Positions 28,525 through 38,470 of a DNA stretch of 38,865 bases are shown here, piece by piece (the first letter of the stretch is position 1; the number at the start of each line of letters is the position of its first letter). The position numbers and the translations under genes were made by a program. The notes beneath the pieces are model-generated. The model worked only from the letters and a program-made list of their open reading frames with translations. It was not told where the DNA came from and made no database searches. The DNA is from Candidatus Polarisedimenticolaceae bacterium (lineage in GTDB: Bacteria > Acidobacteriota > Polarisedimenticolia > Polarisedimenticolales > DASRJG01), in NCBI GenBank assembly GCA_036376135.1, contig DASVAW010000078.1, forward strand, positions 1 through 38,865, given 5' to 3'.

Positions 28525-31500
28525 ATGCTCGCACTCGCCTCCTTGTTGCTCGCCGCGGCGTCGACCTCCGCCCCTCCGGAGGCCCGCCTGCTGCGATTCC
28601 CCGACATCCACGACGACTTCGTCGTCTTCGTGTACGCGGGGGACCTCTGGCGCGCGCCGTCCACGGGCGGCCCCGCGTGGCGCCTGACCAGCCACCAGGG
28701 GACGGAGCTGTTCCCGAAGATCTCCCCCGACGGCCGATGGGTCGCCTTCAGCGCGGAATACACCGGGACGCGGCAGGTCTACGTGATGCCGGCGTGGGGC
28801 GGCGCGCCCCGGCAGCTCACCTACTACAACGACGTCGGGCCGATGCCCCCTCGCGGCGGATGGGACAACTGGATCCTCGGCTGGACCTCCGGCGGGAAGA
28901 TCCTCGTGCGCATGAACCGAACCCCGTGGGGGGAGCGCATGGGGCGTTACTTCCTCGTCGATCCCGAGGGAGGACTCGAGACTCCACTTCCCCTCCCCGA
29001 AGGGGGGTCGGCGTCGCTGTCCCCCGACGGGACGAAGCTCGCCTACACCCCCGTCGACCGGGAGTTCCGCACGTGGAAACGCACGATGGGCGGGCGCGCG
29101 CAGGACGTCTGGATCTACGACCTGAAGGGGGCGCGCTCCGAGCGGGTCACCGATTGGAAGGGGACCGACAACTTCCCGATGTGGGCCGGGGACTCGATCT
29201 ACTTCACCTCCGACCGCGAACGCACGCTGAACCTGTACGCCTATGACGTCGCGTCCCGGACGACGCGCAAGGTCACGCGCTTCGACGAATACGACGTGTT
29301 GTGGCCGAGCCTCGGACCCGGCGCGATCGTCTTCATGAACGGCGGGTTCCTCTGGAAGACCGACCTCGCCTCCGGCGAGACCGCGAAGATCCCGATCACC
29401 CTCGGCACCGACGCCGCGGCCACCGTCCCCGCCTTCAAGGACGTCCAGGGGCAACTCGGCGGCGCCGAGCCCTCCCCGAGCGGCGCCCGCGTCGTCCTCG
29501 AGGCCCGCGGCGAGATCTTCACCGTCCCGGCGAAGGACGGCGCCGCCCGGAATCTCACGCAGACGCAGGGGGTGCGCGAGCACTCCCCCGCGTGGTCCCC
29601 CGACGGGAAGTGGATCGCCTACCTCTCCGACGCCACCGGGGAATACGAGATCTGGCTTCGTGCGCAGGACGGCACCGGGACGCCGCGTCGGCTCACCCGC
29701 GACGGCGACGTCTGGCGTTTCGCCCCGTCGTGGTCCCCCGACTCGAAGAAGCTGGCGTGGGGGGACCGCAAGCGCCGCCTGCGCGTGCTCGACATCGACA
29801 CCGGGAAGACGACCGAGGTCGATCGCGGCACGCAGGGGGATCTCGACACGTACGTCTGGTCCCCCGACTCGAAGTGGATCGCCTACGAAACCGGCCATCC
29901 CAGCCGGCTTCCCGCGATCGCGGTGTGGTCGCTCGAGGCGAATCGTTCCTGGGTGCTCGGCGACGGGTTGACCGCGGACTTCTCCCCCGCGTTCTCCCCC
30001 GACGGGAGCCACCTCTGGTTCCTGAGCAACCGCAACTACGAGCTCGCCTTCAGCGCCTTCGAGTTCAACTACGTCTACCGCAACGCGACCGAGGTGCTGG
30101 GCGCGGCGCTCGCGGCGTCCGGACCGTCTCCGTTCCCGCTCCGAAGCGACGAGGAGAGCGGGAAGCCGGCCGAATCGAAGAAGAAGGACGAGGCTTCGCC
30201 CGCGATCGCGGTGCGCGTCGACCCCGAGGGGATCGTCTCGCGCACGGTGGGCGTTCCGGGGCTCGCGGCCGGGGATTACGCCGCGCTCCGGGCGTCCGAA
30301 GGAGCGCTCTGGTACCTCCGGGGAACCGGCGGTCCCGACGGCGAGCGCGCCCTCTGGCGGTACGACCTCAAGGAGCGCAAGGAGGAGAAAGTCACCCAGC
30401 CCTGCAACGGGTACGCCCTGTCCGCGGACGGGAAGAAGCTCCTCTACCGCGCGAAGGGCGGCCTGTTCCTCGTCGACGCCAAGGCGGGGGCGAAGGAAGG
30501 GGACGGGAAGCTCGATCTCGCGGGGCTGAGGGTGAAGATCGACCCGAAGCTCGAGTGGGCGCAGATGTTCGACGACGCGTGGCGGATCACGCGCGACTGG
30601 TTCTACGACGAGAAGATGCACGGGGTCGACTGGCCCGCGATGAAGCGGCGGTACGGGGCGCTCGTGCCCTTCGTCGCCCACCGCGCGGATCTCGATTTCC
30701 TTCTCGGGGAGATGCTCGGCGAGCTGGAGGCCGGGCACACGTACGTCGCCTCGGGGGACGAACCCCGCGTGCCGCGCGTCGCCGGAGGGATGCTCGGGTG
30801 CGAGCTCGAGCCGGATCCTTCCGGGCGTTATCGCATGGCGAAGATCTACGCCGGCGAGAACTGGGACGAGGCGTGGCGATCGCCGCTCACCGAACCCGGG
30901 CTCGACGTCCGCGAGGGGATGTTCCTGCTCGCGATCGACGGGGTCGACCTCACGACCTCCGAGAACCCGTACCGCCTCCTCGAGAGCAAGGCGAACGCGC
31001 AGGTCGCGCTTCGCGTGGGCGACCGCGCGGACGGCACCGGCTCCCGTGTGGTCCAGGTGCGCACGATCGCGAGCGAAGGGAACCTGCGCTACCTCGACTG
31101 GGTGCGCTCGCGGATGGCCCTCGCCGACCGACTCTCCGGGGGCAGGGTCGGCTACCTGCACCTTCCGGACACGGCGGTCTCGGGGAACCGGATGCTGCAG
31201 AAGCTGTTCTACTCGCAGGTCGGCAAACCCGCGCTCCTCGTGGACGACCGGTACAACGGCGGCGGGTTCATCCCCGATCGCATGATCGAGTACTTCAGCC
31301 GCCGCACGCTGGCCTATTGGGCTCGCCAGGGGATCGACAGCATGCGCACCCCGGGGTTCGCCCACGACGGCCCGAAGGTGATGCTCGTCAACGGCTACTC
31401 CTCGTCGGGGGGAGACGCCCTCCCCTACTTCTTCCGGCTCCACGGCCTCGGCCCGCTCGTCGGCACCCGGACGTGGGGTGGTCTCATCGGCCTGTCCGGG

Positions 31501-31746
31501 AACCCCTCCCTCGTGGACGGGGGCGCGGTCCAGGTCCCCACCTTCCGGATCTACGACCGCGAGGGGAACTGGGTGATCGAGAACGAAGGGGTCCAACCGG
31601 ACGTCGAAGTCGTCGATCTCCCCGAGCGACGGATCGCCGGCGGCGACCCGAGCCTGGAGAAGGGGGTGGAGATTCTCCTCGAGGCGCTGGCGAAACGCCC
31701 CTCCGGGGACCCGAAGCCCCCGACACCCCCCTCGTACGTGCCCTAG
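28525..31746 (+). CDS. Tricorn-like S41 peptidase with signal peptide
   Basis: 1073 residues from ATG 28525, 16 nt after mlaD. Residues 1-16 form a short signal peptide (LALASLLLAAASTSA). About 20-330 and 330-560 are WD40/TolB-like beta-propeller repeats with the recurrent form FPKISPDGRWVAFSAEYTGT and HSPAWSPDGKWIAYLSDATG. A tricorn core follows: catalytic His738 in ELEAGHTYVASGD, PDZ-like domain about 750-850, and the S41 serine region VNGYSSSGGDALPYFF with probable nucleophile Ser961, then GTRTWGGLIGLSG. Archaeal tricorn is cytosolic and degrades peptides from the proteasome; bacterial homologues with signal peptides presumably process peptides in the periplasm. Co-transcription with mla genes is possible but the functional link is unclear. 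Confidence 0.92.
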   Translation: MLALASLLLAAASTSAPPEARLLRFPDIHDDFVVFVYAGDLWRAPSTGGPAWRLTSHQGTELFPKISPDGRWVAFSAEYTGTRQVYVMPAWGGAPRQLTYYNDVGPMPPRGGWDNWILGWTSGGKILVRMNRTPWGERMGRYFLVDPEGGLETPLPLPEGGSASLSPDGTKLAYTPVDREFRTWKRTMGGRAQDVWIYDLKGARSERVTDWKGTDNFPMWAGDSIYFTSDRERTLNLYAYDVASRTTRKVTRFDEYDVLWPSLGPGAIVFMNGGFLWKTDLASGETAKIPITLGTDAAATVPAFKDVQGQLGGAEPSPSGARVVLEARGEIFTVPAKDGAARNLTQTQGVREHSPAWSPDGKWIAYLSDATGEYEIWLRAQDGTGTPRRLTRDGDVWRFAPSWSPDSKKLAWGDRKRRLRVLDIDTGKTTEVDRGTQGDLDTYVWSPDSKWIAYETGHPSRLPAIAVWSLEANRSWVLGDGLTADFSPAFSPDGSHLWFLSNRNYELAFSAFEFNYVYRNATEVLGAALAASGPSPFPLRSDEESGKPAESKKKDEASPAIAVRVDPEGIVSRTVGVPGLAAGDYAALRASEGALWYLRGTGGPDGERALWRYDLKERKEEKVTQPCNGYALSADGKKLLYRAKGGLFLVDAKAGAKEGDGKLDLAGLRVKIDPKLEWAQMFDDAWRITRDWFYDEKMHGVDWPAMKRRYGALVPFVAHRADLDFLLGEMLGELEAGHTYVASGDEPRVPRVAGGMLGCELEPDPSGRYRMAKIYAGENWDEAWRSPLTEPGLDVREGMFLLAIDGVDLTTSENPYRLLESKANAQVALRVGDRADGTGSRVVQVRTIASEGNLRYLDWVRSRMALADRLSGGRVGYLHLPDTAVSGNRMLQKLFYSQVGKPALLVDDRYNGGGFIPDRMIEYFSRRTLAYWARQGIDSMRTPGFAHDGPKVMLVNGYSSSGGDALPYFFRLHGLGPLVGTRTWGGLIGLSGNPSLVDGGAVQVPTFRIYDREGNWVIENEGVQPDVEVVDLPERRIAGGDPSLEKGVEILLEALAKRPSGDPKPPTPPSYVP

Positions 31747-31786: not shown

Positions 31787-32353
31787 ATGCTGAAGAAGTC
31801 GGCTGCTGCGCTCGTCCTGCTCCTCGCCGCCACGGCTCCCGCTTTCGCCGCCTCGAAAGCGGGCGTCACGCTCCCCGATACGGTGCAGGTGGACGGGAAG
31901 ACGCTGCTCCTGAACGGCCTCGGATTGCGCGAGGCGACCTTCCTGAAGATCGACGTCTACGTCGCCGGGCTGTACGTCGAGAAGAAATCCTCCGATCCGG
32001 CGGTCCTCCTCGGCCCCGGTCCCAAGCAGCTTCGCATGCACTTCGTCCGCGGCGTCGGCTCCGGGGACCTCGTGAAGAACTGGCAGGAAGGGATCGCCCG
32101 CAACGTGAAGGGCGCCGAGGCCGACGCGGTGAAAGAGCGCTTCGACCGGGTCTACGCCGTCATGGCCGATGTGGCGGAGGGCGACGAGATGGTGCTCACG
32201 GAGATCCCCGAGAAGGGGGTCACGCTCTCCCTCAAGGGGAAGGACCTGGTCACGATCCCGGGCGCGGATTTCGCGAAGGCGCTTTGGAGCATCTGGTTCG
32301 GCACGCCGCCCAATCCGGAGCTCAAGGAAGGGTTGCTCGGGAAGCTCGACTGA
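31787..32353 (+). CDS. Secreted chalcone-isomerase-like domain protein
   Basis: 188 residues from ATG 31787 with AAGGAGG upstream. Residues 1-21 are a signal peptide (SAAALVLLLAATAPAFA). The mature part matches the bacterial chalcone isomerase-like family: GVTLPDTVQVDGKTLLLNGL, GLREATFLKIDVYVAGLYVE, LRMHFVRGVGSGDLVKNWQE, and a C-terminal FAKALWSIWFGTPPNPELKE. The bacterial family shares the fold of plant chalcone isomerase but lacks known catalysis and may bind fatty acids or other lipids. Cell location is probably periplasmic. It converges with the TPR gene, stops 9 nt apart. Confidence 0.9.
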   Translation: MLKKSAAALVLLLAATAPAFAASKAGVTLPDTVQVDGKTLLLNGLGLREATFLKIDVYVAGLYVEKKSSDPAVLLGPGPKQLRMHFVRGVGSGDLVKNWQEGIARNVKGAEADAVKERFDRVYAVMADVAEGDEMVLTEIPEKGVTLSLKGKDLVTIPGADFAKALWSIWFGTPPNPELKEGLLGKLD

Positions 32354-32362
32354 CCGCCTCGC

Positions 32363-33475
32363 TCAGGGCCGGGGCCGCGCCGTCAGTCCCTCGCGGACCT
32401 TCGCCGCGGCCTCGTTCTCCGGCTCGAGCTCCAGCGCGCGGTTCGCCGCCTTGAGGGCCGCCTTCGACCGGCCTCGCGTCGCCTCCGCCTGGGCGATCGC
32501 CGTCCACACTTCGGCGAGGTCCGGCGCGAGCCTGCGCGCCTTGCGGTACCAGGACAACGCGGCCTCCACGTGTCCGTCCGCGGCCTCGAGGTCCCCGCGG
32601 ACGAGCAGCGCCCAGGGGGTCGCGGCGCGAAGGTCCGCGCTGCGGAGCGCCGCCGCCGCCTCGCGCGGCCGCCCGAGCCCCCGGTAGAGCGCGGCCAGGT
32701 TCCCCAACACGGTGGCGTCGCGGGGGGAGATCTCGAGAGCCCGTCGATAGGCGTCGAACGCCCCCTCCAGATCGCCCCGGCGGCGCCGGACGACGCCCAG
32801 GTTCCCGAGGGCGCCGACGAAATCCGGAACCAGCCTCAGGGCCTGATCGAGCACGGCGTTCGCTCCTTCGAGGTCCCCCGTTCTCAGCCTGCGGACCGCG
32901 AGGTTGTTGAGGTAGATCCCGGTCACCCAGATGTCGTCCAGGAGTCGGATCCCCCGTACCTCGTCGCGACGGAGCCGGTAGAAGTCGTACACGGTCAGCT
33001 TGCCGGAATGGGCGTACGCCGCGACGACGTGCGTGTTGACGAGGACGAGGTCCCCCTCACGCTCCGCGCGGGCCTCCCGCTCCACGACGGCCAGCCGAAC
33101 GGGGATCCCGCGGCTCCGGCCCAGCGCGATGAAGAGGTTCGTGAAGGAGACGCAGTTCCCCCGTCCCGCCTCGAACGCCTCCGCGGCGGTCAGGGAGAGA
33201 TCCGTGTCGTAGTCGAAGACGTAGTCGCCTCCGTCGAACATCGCCGCCTGCATCGAGGCCAACTGCGCCAGGTGGCTCGTCCCGTAGCCCAGGCGCAACG
33301 CCGCCTCGCGGATCGCACGCGTCGGCTCGATCGGGTCGGGGATCGAGGCGGGATCGATTCCCGCCTGGCGCACGACGCGCTCCCACTCGGCGTGGGTCAG
33401 GAGGCGGGGAGCCCGGGCCTCGGCGGAGGCGGCCAGCAGCCCCCCGAGGATCCCGGCGAGAAGCAGGCGCCGCAT
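32363..33475 (-). CDS. Transglutaminase-like domain protein with C-terminal TPR repeats
   Basis: 370 residues from ATG 33475; GTG 33478 and GTG 33484 are in-frame alternatives, but the promoter places the transcript start near 33478, favouring ATG 33475. A signal peptide spans about 1-20 (LLLAGILGGLLAASAEA). Residues about 50-170 form a transglutaminase-like fold with the apparent triad Cys108 (AGRGNCVSFTNLFIALGR), His149 (LVNTHVVAAY) and Asp164 (LTVYDFYRL). Residues about 190-365 are four to five TPR repeats (FVGALGNLGVVRRRRGDLEG, YRRALEISPRDATVLGNLAA). Such proteins are probably periplasmic peptidases or isopeptide-forming enzymes with a protein-binding solenoid; no substrate can be named. 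Confidence 0.88.
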   Translation of the reverse strand: MRRLLLAGILGGLLAASAEARAPRLLTHAEWERVVRQAGIDPASIPDPIEPTRAIREAALRLGYGTSHLAQLASMQAAMFDGGDYVFDYDTDLSLTAAEAFEAGRGNCVSFTNLFIALGRSRGIPVRLAVVEREARAEREGDLVLVNTHVVAAYAHSGKLTVYDFYRLRRDEVRGIRLLDDIWVTGIYLNNLAVRRLRTGDLEGANAVLDQALRLVPDFVGALGNLGVVRRRRGDLEGAFDAYRRALEISPRDATVLGNLAALYRGLGRPREAAAALRSADLRAATPWALLVRGDLEAADGHVEAALSWYRKARRLAPDLAEVWTAIAQAEATRGRSKAALKAANRALELEPENEAAAKVREGLTARPRP

Positions 33476-33484
33476 CACGCCCAC

Positions 33485-33542: not shown

Positions 33543-34382
33543 TCAGTAGGAGCGGTTCGCGAGATCTCGAAGGGAGTTCGGTTCCTCGGTGCGGGCGAAC
33601 CGCTTCCGGACCTCGATCCCGTTGAACGTGAAGGTCACCTCGTTCACCCGGCCGCCGACGGCGTCGAGGAAGTCCGCCGTGTCATGGAACGGGACGCGAA
33701 GGAGCGGGTTCGACAGATCCGCGATCGTCGTCCGCCGGCCGTTCCCGAGCATCGTCAGCCGGACCGACCCCGCGAGCGGCACGATCTCGGTGGCCCCCGC
33801 GAGGTTGTCGAGGGTCAAGCTCGCGTTCAGCGGCGTCGCCGTCCATTGCAGTCCCGCCACTCCCCGCTCTCGGACCAGACGCCCCTGGTTCAGCAGGGAG
33901 AGGCGATCGGTCAACGGCAACGCGCGACCACACTCGCCGTAGTAACGGGTCGTGGCGCTCAGGTAGTACAGCGACCGGGCCCCTTCGCAGCCGGGATTGA
34001 AGCGGTAGTCGTAGGGGTCGTCTTCCGGGACCTCGGGGTCCGCCGCGGTCACGATCGCGCACCCCTGGCGCTCGGGGCTGCAGTAGAGTCCCTGCCAGAA
34101 CGCGAACTCGTCCGACGTGGTGAACGCGCTGTAGGTGGACAACGTGCGATCTCCGTTGGCCGCCTGGTCCACGTGCCAATAGAACGCGTCGCCGCCGTCG
34201 GGCCATTTCGCGATGAACAGGGACTTCCGCTGGATCGCGGCCTTGCCATTCGTGTTGACGACGCCGCTCCCCTGCCCGTTCCGGACCTGGTCGTTGTCGA
34301 CGATGAGCTCGTAGTCGGTGATCGCGCAGCCGCAGCCGAGCAGGAGGGCCGCGGTCAGCGCCGGCGCCGTCCGGATTCGCAT
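33543..34382 (-). CDS. Putative lipoprotein of an unrecognised family, copy A
   Basis: 279 residues from ATG 34382, with GGGGGTG upstream. The N-terminus is a lipoprotein-type signal (ALTAALLLGCGC), the acylated Cys being 17 or 19. I recognise no family. The mature sequence aligns without a gap to copy B (34505-35344): by hand count 162 of 259 positions are identical (63%). Shared blocks include DNDQV, NGQGSGVVNTNGKA, VDQAANGDRTLSTY, YCSPERQGCAIVT, YYGECGRAL, LTDRLSLLNQGRLV and FNGIE near the end. Four conserved cysteines (101, 108, 132, 151) could form two disulfides. The pattern is beta-strand-rich. It has its own promoter after the terminator of copy B. Role unknown; a surface or periplasmic location follows only from the lipobox. 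Confidence 0.85.
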   Translation of the reverse strand: MRIRTAPALTAALLLGCGCAITDYELIVDNDQVRNGQGSGVVNTNGKAAIQRKSLFIAKWPDGGDAFYWHVDQAANGDRTLSTYSAFTTSDEFAFWQGLYCSPERQGCAIVTAADPEVPEDDPYDYRFNPGCEGARSLYYLSATTRYYGECGRALPLTDRLSLLNQGRLVRERGVAGLQWTATPLNASLTLDNLAGATEIVPLAGSVRLTMLGNGRRTTIADLSNPLLRVPFHDTADFLDAVGGRVNEVTFTFNGIEVRKRFARTEEPNSLRDLANRSY

Positions 34383-34404
34383 GGTCACCCCCGGGATGGG
34401 CGGA

Positions 34405-34433
34405 ACGCTACGCCCGGCAAGGTGAGGCGTCAA
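34405..34433 (-). promoter_or_regulatory. Putative promoter of lipoprotein copy A
   Basis: On the minus strand: TTGACG (34433-34428), 17-nt spacer, TAGCGT (34410-34405). It lies just past the terminator of copy B, so the two genes appear to be separate transcription units. The leader would be about 15-20 nt and contains GGGGGTG. Confidence 0.55.
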
Positions 34434-34445
34434 CGCCCCGGCGGA

Positions 34446-34480
34446 CAAAAAGAAAGGGCGGGTCTTGCGACCCGCCCCTT
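34446..34480 (-). terminator. Rho-independent terminator after lipoprotein copy B
   Basis: Read on the minus strand, a perfect 9-bp stem GGGCGGGTC/GACCCGCCC (34477-34456, 4-nt loop) is followed by TTTCTTTTTG (34455-34446). It is the clearest terminator in the window and sits 25 nt after the stop of copy B. Confidence 0.9.
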
Positions 34481-34504
34481 CGAGGGAAGCCAATCGGACC
34501 GGAA

Positions 34505-35344
34505 CTAGAACTTGCGGTTCGAAAGGTTGCGCAGCGAGTTCGAGTCCTCGGTGCGGCCGAACGAGCGCTTGATCTCGATGCCGTTGTACACGAACGAGAC
34601 CTCGTTGACCGAGCTGCCGTAGTTCGACATGAAGTCGGCGGCCGAGTTGAACAGCACCTTGTTCATCGGGTTGTTGAGGTCGATGATCGTCTGGCGCTGA
34701 CCGTTCGGGATCATCGTGATCGAGAACGAGCCGGCCATCGGGAGCAGCTGCTGCACGCCAGCCTTGTTGTTGAGGGTGACGGTCGTGTTCATCGGGGTCG
34801 CGGCCCACTGCAGGCCCGCAACGCCGTTCTTCGACACGAGACGGCCCTGGTTCAGGAGCGAGAGGCGATCGGTCAGCGCGAGGGCGCGGCCGCACTCCCC
34901 GTAGTACCGGGTCGTGCTGGTCAGGTAGTAGACCGAGCGCGCGCCGGCGCAGTTCGGGTTGTAGCTGTAGTCATAGATGTCGACGTCGCCGACCTCGGGG
35001 TCGGAGGACGTGACGATCGCGCAGCCCTGACGCTCGGGCGAGCAATAGAGATCGTCCGGGAAGATCGGGTCGCTGCCCGTGCTGAAGTTGTTGTACGTGG
35101 AGAGCGTGCGGTCGCCGTTGGCGGCCTGATCCACGAACCACACGGCGTTGTCGGTGCCATCGGGCCACCCGAGGGCGACCTGCGAGGACTGCCGGACGAG
35201 GGCCTTGCCGTTCGTGTTGACCACGCCCGAACCCTGACCATTGGACACCTGGTCGTTGTCCGTGATCAGCTCGTAGTTCGAAAGGGCGCAGCCGACGCCC
35301 GTGGTCAGAAGGGCGCAAAGGCCAAGATAGAACAGCTTCTTCAT
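34505..35344 (-). CDS. Putative lipoprotein of an unrecognised family, copy B (probably highly expressed)
   Basis: 279 residues from ATG 35344, with AAAGGAG ideally spaced before it. Lipoprotein signal KKLFYLGLCALLTTGVGC with lipobox Cys19. The mature part begins ALSNYELITDNDQVSNGQG and is collinear with copy A (63% identity, no gaps), keeping Cys101, Cys108, Cys132 and Cys151. This gene is visibly less GC-rich than its neighbours and uses fewer codon variants; with its strong ribosome-binding site, consensus TTGACA and strong terminator it looks built for high expression. No transmembrane or enzymatic motif is evident. I do not recognise the family. It could be a surface or periplasmic binding or structural protein; this is a guess. 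Confidence 0.87.
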   Translation of the reverse strand: MKKLFYLGLCALLTTGVGCALSNYELITDNDQVSNGQGSGVVNTNGKALVRQSSQVALGWPDGTDNAVWFVDQAANGDRTLSTYNNFSTGSDPIFPDDLYCSPERQGCAIVTSSDPEVGDVDIYDYSYNPNCAGARSVYYLTSTTRYYGECGRALALTDRLSLLNQGRLVSKNGVAGLQWAATPMNTTVTLNNKAGVQQLLPMAGSFSITMIPNGQRQTIIDLNNPMNKVLFNSAADFMSNYGSSVNEVSFVYNGIEIKRSFGRTEDSNSLRNLSNRKF

Positions 35345-35392
35345 GAACTGGCTCCTTTAAGAAGGTCGTGAACCCATCCCAGCGAAACAAAA

Positions 35393-35524: not shown

Positions 35525-35556
35525 AAGTGACCGAACTTGACTTTATGAGGTCACTT
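35525..35556 (-). terminator. Inverted repeat, possible terminator of the sulfatase operon or an operator
   Basis: AAGTGACC (35525-35532) and GGTCACTT (35549-35556) are perfect inverted copies around a 16-nt loop. On the minus strand, about 50 nt after the sulfatase stop, the stem is followed by CTTTCCTTTTGCC, a loose T-rich tract; on the plus strand CTTTTAG follows. The long loop makes it an imperfect terminator; a dimeric-repressor site is the alternative. Confidence 0.4.
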
Positions 35557-35609: not shown

Positions 35610-36995
35610 TCAATTGATATAGCCAAGTGAGCGCAACGCCTCCCGCAGTTCCGGGGAGATGTGGTAGTCGCGATCCTGTTGGGTGTCCTCCGAGAGCCAC
35701 GCATCGAGGCGGCGGGCAAGATCGAACACGACCTCGGGGTGGGACGCCGCGAGGTCGGTCGTTTCTCCCGGATCGCTTTCGACATCGAACAGGAGGCGTT
35801 CGGCGGGCGCGCCCATCCGGGGGACGTGCACGAGCTTGAATCGGCCCAGGCGTACCCAGCGGCGCTTCCCCGCGATCCCCTCGAGCTCGCGGCGCGACGC
35901 GGCCTCTTCGTGCAGGCTCCGGTCGGTCTCGCCGAGACAGGGACGGTCCGCCCGCTCGGTCCCCTCCAGCAGGGGGCGGACCGAGACCCCTCGGAAACGC
36001 CCGTCGGCGGGAAGGCCGGCGAAGTCGAGGACGGTGGGCGCGACGTCCAGGCTCCGCGTCGAGAAGGGAACCCTCGTCCCCGGGGCGATCGACCCGGGAA
36101 GGGCCACCGCGAACGGGATCGCGATCTCGGCCTGCGTGCCGAGGTCGCCGTGTTCGAAGAAGTACTGCTGCTCCCCGAGCGACTCCCCGTGGTCGGCGGT
36201 CACGACGACGAGCGTCTTCCGGTCGAGCCCCTTCTCCGCCATGGCCGCGAGGAGCTTCCCCAGGGAATCGTCGGTGTAGCGCAGTTCGGCGTCGTAGAGA
36301 TTCACGAAGGCGGAGATCTCGTCCGGAGGCATCCGATTCTGGAAGATGAGGGGGCCGATCGTCCGCCTTCTCGCGGAGAGATCGTCGTAGACCTGCCGCG
36401 GCCGGGGATCGTCGGGGCCGAAGGCCGAGCGCCACCGTTCGGGGGGATCGTAGGTCCAGTGAGGGTCCATGACGTGGACCCAGAGGAACCACGGCCGGTC
36501 CTCGCGCGACGCCTCCACGATCCAGCGCCAGGCCTCCCCGAGCGACTGCTCGGCGAGGGGGTGCGCGCGGAAGTCGTCGAGGTAGTCGTCGAACCCCTGC
36601 TCGAAGCCGCTGCGTTTCACGAGCCGGGGATGGGTCTGCACCGCCCCCGTGCGGTAACCGGCCTCTCTCAGGATCTCCGCGAGGGTCCGGCTCTCCGGCT
36701 CGAGGGGCATCAGGATGTTCCGGGTCCCGTGCTCGTGCGGATAGGTGGAGGTCAGAAGCGAGGCGAGCGACGGATTGGTGCGTGGCGACACCGTGTGGTG
36801 CCGCTCGAAAAGCGCCCCGGTCGACGCCCACGCGTCGAAGTTGGGGGTCGTCTTCCGGGCGTACCCGTAGGCGCTGACGTGGTCCGCCCGCGTCGTCTCC
36901 AAGGTCACGAGGAGGACGTTTCGCCCGTTCCCCTGAACCGGTCGGGAGCACCCCGCCCCGAGCGCGAGCAGCACGATCGCCAGGAGCCGTCTCAC
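35610..36995 (-). CDS. Sulfatase-fold (alkaline phosphatase superfamily) lipoprotein
   Basis: 461 residues from GTG 36995, overlapping the stop of the membrane-protein gene in GTGA; the longer upstream frame is shadow. Lipobox LLALGAGC puts the acylated Cys at 16. The sulfatase/phosphodiesterase core follows: VLLVTLETTRADHVSAYGY, SPRTNPSLASLLTSTYPHEHG, VVVTADHGESLGE, EHGDLGTQAEIAIPF, SLDVAPTVLDFAGLP. Two key positions differ from true sulfatases: the first metal-binding Asp is Glu33, and the residue aligned with the formylglycine Cys/Ser is Thr73. Thr is the nucleophile in phosphoethanolamine and phosphoglycerol transferases, so phosphoryl transfer or phosphodiester hydrolysis at the cell surface is at least as likely as sulfate release. 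It is coupled to the polytopic protein upstream. Confidence 0.87.
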   Translation of the reverse strand: MRRLLAIVLLALGAGCSRPVQGNGRNVLLVTLETTRADHVSAYGYARKTTPNFDAWASTGALFERHHTVSPRTNPSLASLLTSTYPHEHGTRNILMPLEPESRTLAEILREAGYRTGAVQTHPRLVKRSGFEQGFDDYLDDFRAHPLAEQSLGEAWRWIVEASREDRPWFLWVHVMDPHWTYDPPERWRSAFGPDDPRPRQVYDDLSARRRTIGPLIFQNRMPPDEISAFVNLYDAELRYTDDSLGKLLAAMAEKGLDRKTLVVVTADHGESLGEQQYFFEHGDLGTQAEIAIPFAVALPGSIAPGTRVPFSTRSLDVAPTVLDFAGLPADGRFRGVSVRPLLEGTERADRPCLGETDRSLHEEAASRRELEGIAGKRRWVRLGRFKLVHVPRMGAPAERLLFDVESDPGETTDLAASHPEVVFDLARRLDAWLSEDTQQDRDYHISPELREALRSLGYIN

Positions 36996-38470
36996 CGGGG
37001 GCTCCACCGGGCCAGCGCCTGCCGGTTCGCCCCGGTGTCCCGGAGCACGAGCACGATCTCGGGATCGGTCGGCAGCGGCGCGAGCCAACCCGCCTCCCCT
37101 CCGATCGCCCGCGCGAGCGGGGCGTCGGCGTCGAGAAGGAGCCAGCCCAGGTCGTAACGCGTCGTCGCCTCGGCGAGGCGCTCGCTCCAGCCGGGGGCGG
37201 CGTCGTGGATGGGCATCCACACGTCCCGTCGGAAGGTCGTGTACAGGTCGTTCCGCCCGTCCATGAACACGCGCTCCTCCGGGTACTGCCGGAACATCAG
37301 GAAACCGCCGAAGCGATAGGCGTTGAACCCGTTTCCCTCGATCCGCTCGGCGGCGAGGAAACGTACGGCGCGTTCGGGCATCGGACGAGTCATCCGCTCC
37401 TCGAACCTCGGGATCGGGGAGACGAACTTCGCCCCCGAGAGCGCGACCGACGCGATCGCGAGCCCCCCGAGGAACGACGGGCCGCTCCAACGGGCCCGTC
37501 CGAGCGCGGCCAGCAGCGTGGGCACCAGGACCAGCGAGGCGAGCGGCAGGTGGCGGATCGCGGTGGTCAGCAGGAGGAGGGACGCCGCGAGCCTCCCCCA
37601 CTCCGAGAAACGACGCTCGCCTCCCCGGACGGTCGCGACGACGGCCAGCAGGAGCGCGCCGCAGAACAGCGGGAGGCGCAGGAAGTTCGGCCGGGTCCAC
37701 TCGGCGTTCCCTTCGTGGATCTCCGGACGGAGGACGTAGAGGAAGGGGTGGGTCACCTGCAACCACCCGTGGGGGTTGAGGCAGGCCGCCAACGGCATGA
37801 GGAGCACGGTGAGCGCGAGCCTGCGCGCCCGCGGTCGGTCCCGCTCGAGGAACGCCCCGATCGCCTCGGCCGCCACGAGGAATGGCGCCACGATGAACGC
37901 CGCGTGGAGATTCGCCCAGATCGCGATCGACCCGAGGATCGCCGGAACCGCCCAGCGCGCCCCGCCGCGGTCGCGCTCGAGGAGGTACAGGAGAACGGCG
38001 ATCCCGAGGTAGGTGAAGATCTGCGGGCGCACGTCCCAGAAGAGATTCCCGAAGGTCAGGAACGCGGCGAGAACGACCCCGACCGCCCGCGCCGCGGCGC
38101 CGATCCCCATGCGCGCCATGGTGGCGGAGAGGAACGCCAGCGTCGCGGCGAGGACGAGCGCGCGCATTCCGACGAGCGCGACGCGCCCGGAGGGGGCGAT
38201 CTCGAGCACCCCCGAGGCATCGCGCGCCGTCGGCGCGATCGCCGCGGCGAGGAGCTGGAACCCCCACTCGTTGTCGTGCCACGGCGCGTCCCCGAAGGTC
38301 GCCGAGCCGACGCCGCGCGAGGGGATCTCCCCCGCGTCGAGGATCCGTTTGCCGATGGCGAGGTGGTAGTAGGCATCGACGCTGGAGATCGGAAAGAGCG
38401 CGAGCCATGCCATCGCCGCGATGGCGACGGCGGGGAGGAGGCGCTCGAGGGTCGGCCGGGGATGGTCCAT
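36992..38470 (-). CDS. Polytopic membrane protein, GT-C glycosyltransferase-like
   Basis: 492 residues from ATG 38470. About ten hydrophobic segments are visible in residues 10-350, followed by a soluble C-terminal part (about 355-492). The N-terminal loop SSVDAYYHLAIGKRILDAGE, with an Asp just after the first membrane helix, is the arrangement found in GT-C glycosyltransferases, where an acidic residue in the first extracytoplasmic loop is catalytic. VRPQIFTYLGIAVLLYLLER and NLHAAFIVAPFLV are further conserved-looking blocks; similar proteins appear in databases as hypothetical membrane or mannosyltransferase-like proteins. The stop overlaps the sulfatase-like start by 4 nt, implying joint work on an envelope polymer or lipid; this is inference. 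Confidence 0.82.
   Translation of the reverse strand: MDHPRPTLERLLPAVAIAAMAWLALFPISSVDAYYHLAIGKRILDAGEIPSRGVGSATFGDAPWHDNEWGFQLLAAAIAPTARDASGVLEIAPSGRVALVGMRALVLAATLAFLSATMARMGIGAAARAVGVVLAAFLTFGNLFWDVRPQIFTYLGIAVLLYLLERDRGGARWAVPAILGSIAIWANLHAAFIVAPFLVAAEAIGAFLERDRPRARRLALTVLLMPLAACLNPHGWLQVTHPFLYVLRPEIHEGNAEWTRPNFLRLPLFCGALLLAVVATVRGGERRFSEWGRLAASLLLLTTAIRHLPLASLVLVPTLLAALGRARWSGPSFLGGLAIASVALSGAKFVSPIPRFEERMTRPMPERAVRFLAAERIEGNGFNAYRFGGFLMFRQYPEERVFMDGRNDLYTTFRRDVWMPIHDAAPGWSERLAEATTRYDLGWLLLDADAPLARAIGGEAGWLAPLPTDPEIVLVLRDTGANRQALARWSPR

Follow-up and report, generated by a model that had tools for sequence, protein, structure and literature searches.

What do two neighbouring genes for lipoproteins of equal length, outside any recognised family, contribute to the envelope of the bacterium that carries them? 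The genes lie in a window (the whole stretch of 38,865 nucleotides analysed here) from a member of Candidatus Polarisedimenticolia, a class of Acidobacteriota found widely in marine sediments (PMC8528874). A first-pass annotation of the window had singled them out as its best candidate for an undescribed envelope system. The pair is real, its family has no name and it is more structured than the window alone reveals; the envelope system itself is put forward here as a hypothesis. This nameless family occurs in close to half of the genomes of the class that were tested, at a conserved locus and with two candidate partners. An anonymous gene pair becomes a testable surface system, and profile, partners and locus make up a defined annotation query.

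Two sister lipoproteins encoded in tandem

The products of copies A and B (Table 1) align without gaps and are identical at 170 of 279 residues overall and at 162 of 259 after residue 20, the latter figure being exactly that of the first-pass annotation. Both start with a hydrophobic signal and a lipobox and have in common Cys19 and, as noticed before, four further cysteines (101, 108, 132 and 151). In the lipobox of copy A, the lipid-bearing cysteine could equally well be C17 (LLGC) or C19. The signal and the lipobox show both copies to be predicted secreted, lipid-anchored envelope proteins. The residue at +2 after the lipid cysteine is Ala (C-A) in both copies, and not Asp. In E. coli the absence of Asp at +2 designates the outer membrane, a rule that may not hold in this phylum; judging from the Ala at this position, the lipoproteins most likely sit in the outer membrane, where their cysteines would form disulphides. 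The reading frame of copy A is intact and third-position GC is 0.90 in A and 0.93 in B, as in the genuine genes of the window. Overall GC is 67.7% in copy A and 63.3% in copy B compared to 71.6% in the window, which agrees with the lower GC reported earlier for copy B.

The family tree groups A and B as fully supported sisters and so places their origin within the lineage of the window; the pair is a lineage-specific duplication inside a larger family. The branch of copy A (0.52) is longer than that of copy B (0.20). Gene conversion between the two was considered and rejected, the longest identical DNA run being 16 nt and synonymous identity being uniform. The equal length of the proteins had been taken as a sign of strong structural constraint. 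This argument does not hold: mature lengths in the family range from 246 to 275 aa, and equality is unremarkable in a pair this close.

Table 1. Positions in the window of the lipoprotein genes, their neighbours and their candidate expression signals.
Feature	Position	Strand	Remarks
Secreted tricorn-type protease	28525-31746	(+)	PD40 propeller, PDZ, S41
Secreted chalcone-isomerase-like protein	31787-32353	(+)	PF16036
Secreted protein, transglutaminase-like core and TPR repeats	32363-33484	(-)	Right after copy A
Copy A, sister lipoprotein, 279 aa	33543-34382	(-)	Signal peptide with LLGCGC, four further Cys
Weak candidate promoter of copy A, TTGACG-N17-TAGCGT	34433-34405	(-)	Read from sequence; missed by scan
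Intrinsic terminator after copy B, separating B from A	34481-34452	(-)	13 pairs, loop 4, T-rich tail
Copy B, lipoprotein, 279 aa	34505-35344	(-)	Lipobox GVGC with Cys19; Cys 101/108/132/151
AAAGGAG ribosome-binding site of copy B	35352..35358	(-)	Kept as A(A)AAGGAG in relatives' leading genes
Candidate promoter of copy B, TTGCCC-N17-TATAAA	35516-35488	(-)	-10 position kept in relatives; missed by strict scan
Sulfatase/phosphodiesterase-type gene upstream of copy B	35610..37130	(-)	PF00884; start uncertain
492-aa protein of a family without name	36992..38470	(-)	Hydrophobic N-terminus; homologue at lipoprotein locus in G001 and Mor1

Expression signals

Several signals of high expression had been attributed to copy B. 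The perfect terminator is real and lies between the two genes, and the AAAGGAG is likewise real and conserved in relatives. The consensus -35 did not survive scrutiny: the TTGACA upstream of copy B (35398-35393) is not followed by a -10 at a spacing of 17 nt, and a strict scan of the region returned no promoter. TTGCCC-N17-TATAAA is a better candidate for the promoter of copy B than TTGACA, because similar -10 boxes (CGTATAAA, CGTATATT, CGTACTTT) precede the ATG of leading genes by about 150-190 nt in several relatives. Copy A, which lacks a clear AAAGGAG, had been credited with a promoter of its own; what can be retained is the weak candidate listed in Table 1, which is absent from the strict scan. 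An inverted repeat, AAGTGACC-N16-GGTCACTT, lies between the sulfatase gene and copy B (35525-35556, (-) strand) and may be a terminator or an operator.

Long leaders are present upstream of leading lipoprotein genes in relatives (L040:10320-10512, with counterparts at the equivalent position in L041, L042, L039, L052 and L079). They carry the linear motifs AGAAAGGGGGTCGG and CTGGTAGAGAGACGG, of which looser forms occur in L077 and L047. Within the 11 genomes searched, exact copies of AGAAAGGGGGTCGG were found at lipoprotein loci only; the copy at G015:C3:142 is at the end of a contig, next to an SLT gene. A structured RNA leader was rejected as an explanation: the linear motifs are conserved, but RNAalifold detected no conserved structure and Rfam gave no match.

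A lipoprotein family detected in a single class

Searches of Pfam, NCBIfam and PHROGs with a cut-off as lax as E 10 assigned neither copy to a family, and no PDB sequence matched with a meaningful E-value; 44 aligned members searched against family databases gave scattered sub-threshold matches alone. The first-pass annotation had proposed an iterated profile search for homologues and their neighbours. Relatives were found in 18 of the 41 genomes of Ca. Polarisedimenticolia (GTDB Mor1), amounting to about 60 gene copies; a profile search extended to 396 genomes of the phylum matched these 18 and no others. Outside the phylum, one single-sequence scan of genome contigs was made, and plasmids, phages and viral contigs were negative. 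As far as tested, the family thus appears to be confined to Ca. Polarisedimenticolia. Its members are found, among others, in Ca. Polarisedimenticola svalbardensis and Acidobacteria bacterium Mor1. No description of the lipoprotein family, nor of surface lipoproteins of Ca. Polarisedimenticolia, turned up in the literature searched. An origin from a phage or plasmid was dismissed, as there was no match to phage or plasmid records and no relative on viral contigs, and the window carries housekeeping chromosomal genes.

In all, 66 open frames were recovered. Of these, 55 are full-length; among the partial ones, a few represent the same gene, truncated where a locus ends. The family alignment comprises 57 full-length members and has 11 invariant positions: the lipid cysteine, the four other cysteines and Tyr, Asp, Ala, Gln, Glu and Gly positions, an ECG motif being included. 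The Cys19 lipobox position is invariant across all aligned members. Combined with the negative searches, this coherent family upholds the earlier view that the pair belongs to no recognised family, and no confident match to a characterised one turned up in Pfam, NCBIfam, PHROGs, PDB or the predicted folds. One member, L073 (G014:C1:2665594-2666436), has an in-frame TGA and is probably a decayed copy.

Structure prediction and fold comparison, also proposed by the first-pass annotation, were run on two models, that of copy B (44 sequences; mean pLDDT 81, pTM 0.50) and that of a mature f6 member (57 sequences; pLDDT 85, pTM 0.50). Beta structure predominates in both, and their C-terminal part consists of strands and one long helix. 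Foldseek returned no match at E<=0.001 for either model, and neither matched the fold libraries significantly, the best Z being 3.6 (71 residues) and 4.1 (63 residues), a result that does not establish a new fold. Lectin, filamin, Ig-like, aspartic-protease and OspA folds were rejected since all rows were weak and mutually inconsistent.

Copies per genome reach nine and are mostly in tandem, in arrays of up to five genes. In family f6, two paralogue clades alternate in the arrays, S (mature length about 246-260 aa) and L (about 254-274 aa). The L genes lead, several of them behind a long, conserved leader, and usually have S genes a short distance after them, so that the unit multiplied in the f6 arrays looks like an L-S cassette. 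Mor1 underwent its own separate expansion to nine copies.

The conserved locus of the lipoprotein genes

In families f1, f3, f6, f10 and f11, the arrays lie downstream of alaS and a small gene for a lytic transglycosylase with an SLT domain (assigned by Pfam), usually after pilT and recX. The SLT gene is directly upstream of the first lipoprotein gene in f6, f10 and f11. In G001 and Mor1, a membrane-like gene of the 492-aa type lies between alaS-SLT and the array, and in Mor1 a sulfatase then follows; sulfatases are also present at the lipoprotein locus in G018, G023 and G029. Because a 492-aa-type gene and a sulfatase are found upstream of copy B, we place the window at this conserved position: it is probably the pilT-recX-alaS-SLT locus, cut by the contig end. 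No counterpart of the transglutaminase-like/TPR gene was found at the lipoprotein locus in relatives.

Association with an S8 protease and a giant protein

On the far side of the arrays, and convergent with them, is a gene for an S8 protease, which adjoins the arrays in f1, f3, f6, f10 and f11. In 11 genomes this gene is head to head (divergent) with that of a giant protein of about 2,250-2,800 aa, which has a signal-peptide-like N-terminus and, by Pfam, FG-GAP and thrombospondin type 3 (TSP_3) repeats. Catalytic His and Ser are kept in 17/17 aligned S8 proteins and the Asp is visible in the alignment. The protease often carries a signal and a lipobox-like motif of its own (several members); in three orthologues scanned, PF00082 was the sole domain and the protein ends with it. 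In the genome of the window, the S8-giant pair is on another contig, C137, and in G035 and G036 it is the lipoprotein that has moved elsewhere, S8 and giant being at the locus. The arrangement is known from the loci of relatives, the window itself hiding such context. Strong S8 orthologues (269-1115 bits) were restricted to this class among the 396 phylum genomes, the next matches having at most 167 bits.

In the 41 class genomes, lipoprotein and S8 orthologue were both present in 17 and both absent in 22. The lipoprotein alone was found in one, G014 (74% complete), and S8 alone in one, G031, in which the giant was not detected either. At the conserved locus, S8 was absent in the 15 lipoprotein-negative genomes examined (16 with G004, where the contig ends), with the exception of G031. 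A plain Fisher test of the co-occurrence, which ignores kinship, gave a p of 2e-9. On the AlaS tree, lipoprotein presence changed independently 4-5 times, and S8 agreed in 3-4 of the 4 supported comparisons and disagreed in none; with four such comparisons only, a sign test cannot reach significance. The link between lipoprotein, S8 and giant is supported by these gene distributions, and a functional tie of the lipoproteins to the other two appears likely but unproven. The earlier suggestion of an undescribed envelope system has gained from this linkage, found outside the window, which makes it a lead, and the system stays hypothetical.

Possible roles of the lipoproteins

In the reading that we favour, the lipoproteins are quite possibly the membrane-anchored small parts of a three-part surface system serving a protease-processed giant. 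The giant secreted FG-GAP/TSP3 protein, of calcium-binding type, would be exported and processed by the S8 protease, and the small lipoproteins would serve to dock it at the cell surface, to retain it there or to assemble it; repeated tandem duplication would diversify their copy number and sequence. The docking, retention or assembly role is the step that we infer, and structure gives no pointer to docking, given a pTM of 0.50 and no fold match. That the S8/lipoprotein association survives separation, in the window genome (C137) as in G035/G036, argues for the three-part system; G031 (S8 without lipoprotein or detected giant) and G014 (lipoprotein without S8) argue against it. Much of the linkage could be due to nothing more than gene order inherited from an ancestor. 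A possible but doubtful reading is that these are expanded, abundant, structural or antigenic coat-like lipoproteins of the outer membrane, protease and giant being merely inherited neighbours. It is favoured by the tandem arrays of up to five genes with up to nine copies per genome, the strong ribosome sites and the conserved promoter and leader before leading genes, the retention of the locus across families of the class and the non-significant sign test on independent changes. It does not explain why the S8 orthologue tracks the lipoprotein in 3-4 of 4 supported comparisons, also after physical separation.

Two further partnerships were considered. The co-occurrence with S8, the conserved cysteine-rich part with its invariant ECG motif and the segments variable between copies are what one might expect if the lipoprotein met S8 at the surface or in the periplasm as its inhibitor or substrate, the disulphide domain either inhibiting the protease or being cleaved by it, so that the cell is protected or the protease kept under control. 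We find this improbable, since no likeness to a known inhibitor was seen by sequence or fold and multi-copy arrays with a single S8 are left unexplained. It is very unlikely that the lipoprotein is a partner of the adjacent SLT lytic transglycosylase in peptidoglycan remodelling, as the position of SLT directly upstream of the first lipoprotein gene in f6, f10 and f11 would suggest. SLT-domain genes are present in 41/41 class genomes, and those lipoprotein-negative ones that were examined retain the alaS-SLT pair, so that SLT is uninformative for lipoprotein presence and was set aside as a specific partner; gaps of about 250-300 nt with a separate promoter lie between SLT and lipoprotein genes. 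Returning to the three-part system, its full form, namely an undescribed surface-assembly system of one Acidobacteriota class that combines the giant, a dedicated S8 lipoprotease and duplicating disulphide lipoproteins that would anchor or assemble the giant, with a family-specific promoter and leader, is offered as a tentative possibility.

Comparison with known systems

Copies A and B have the lipobox signal of bacterial outer-membrane lipoproteins processed by signal peptidase II. As an expanded paralogous lipoprotein family, they resemble the Osp proteins of Borrelia; no sequence relation to these was found, and the OspA structure rows (best Z 3.6 over 73 residues) were no better than unrelated ones. 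The S8 protease recalls the SphB1/NalP-type S8 lipoprotein proteases, which are subtilases with a lipoprotein-type N-terminus, but no C-terminal autotransporter beta barrel was found in the three orthologues scanned. Like the giant, Bap1 of Vibrio cholerae, a secreted protein of the matrix or surface, contains FG-GAP repeats. The giant differs by its size of about 2,250-2,800 aa and its many TSP3 repeats; we know of no lipoprotein array with Bap1. Bap1 is a matrix adhesin (PMC3161981, PMC3789753).

A giant-adhesin system with a dedicated protease, RtxA with LapD/LapG, is presented for Legionella (PMC11264772). LapA/LapG and RtxA systems combine a giant repetitive surface protein with a protease, as here, the likeness being in plan only. 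To our knowledge, LapA/LapG systems have no counterpart of the small lipoprotein family. They export their giant by type 1 secretion and have a c-di-GMP receptor in the inner membrane; the giant found here begins with a signal-peptide-like N-terminus. The protease associated with the lipoproteins is a Peptidase_S8 (subtilase) and not a LapG-type cysteine protease, and the giant is an FG-GAP/TSP3 protein.
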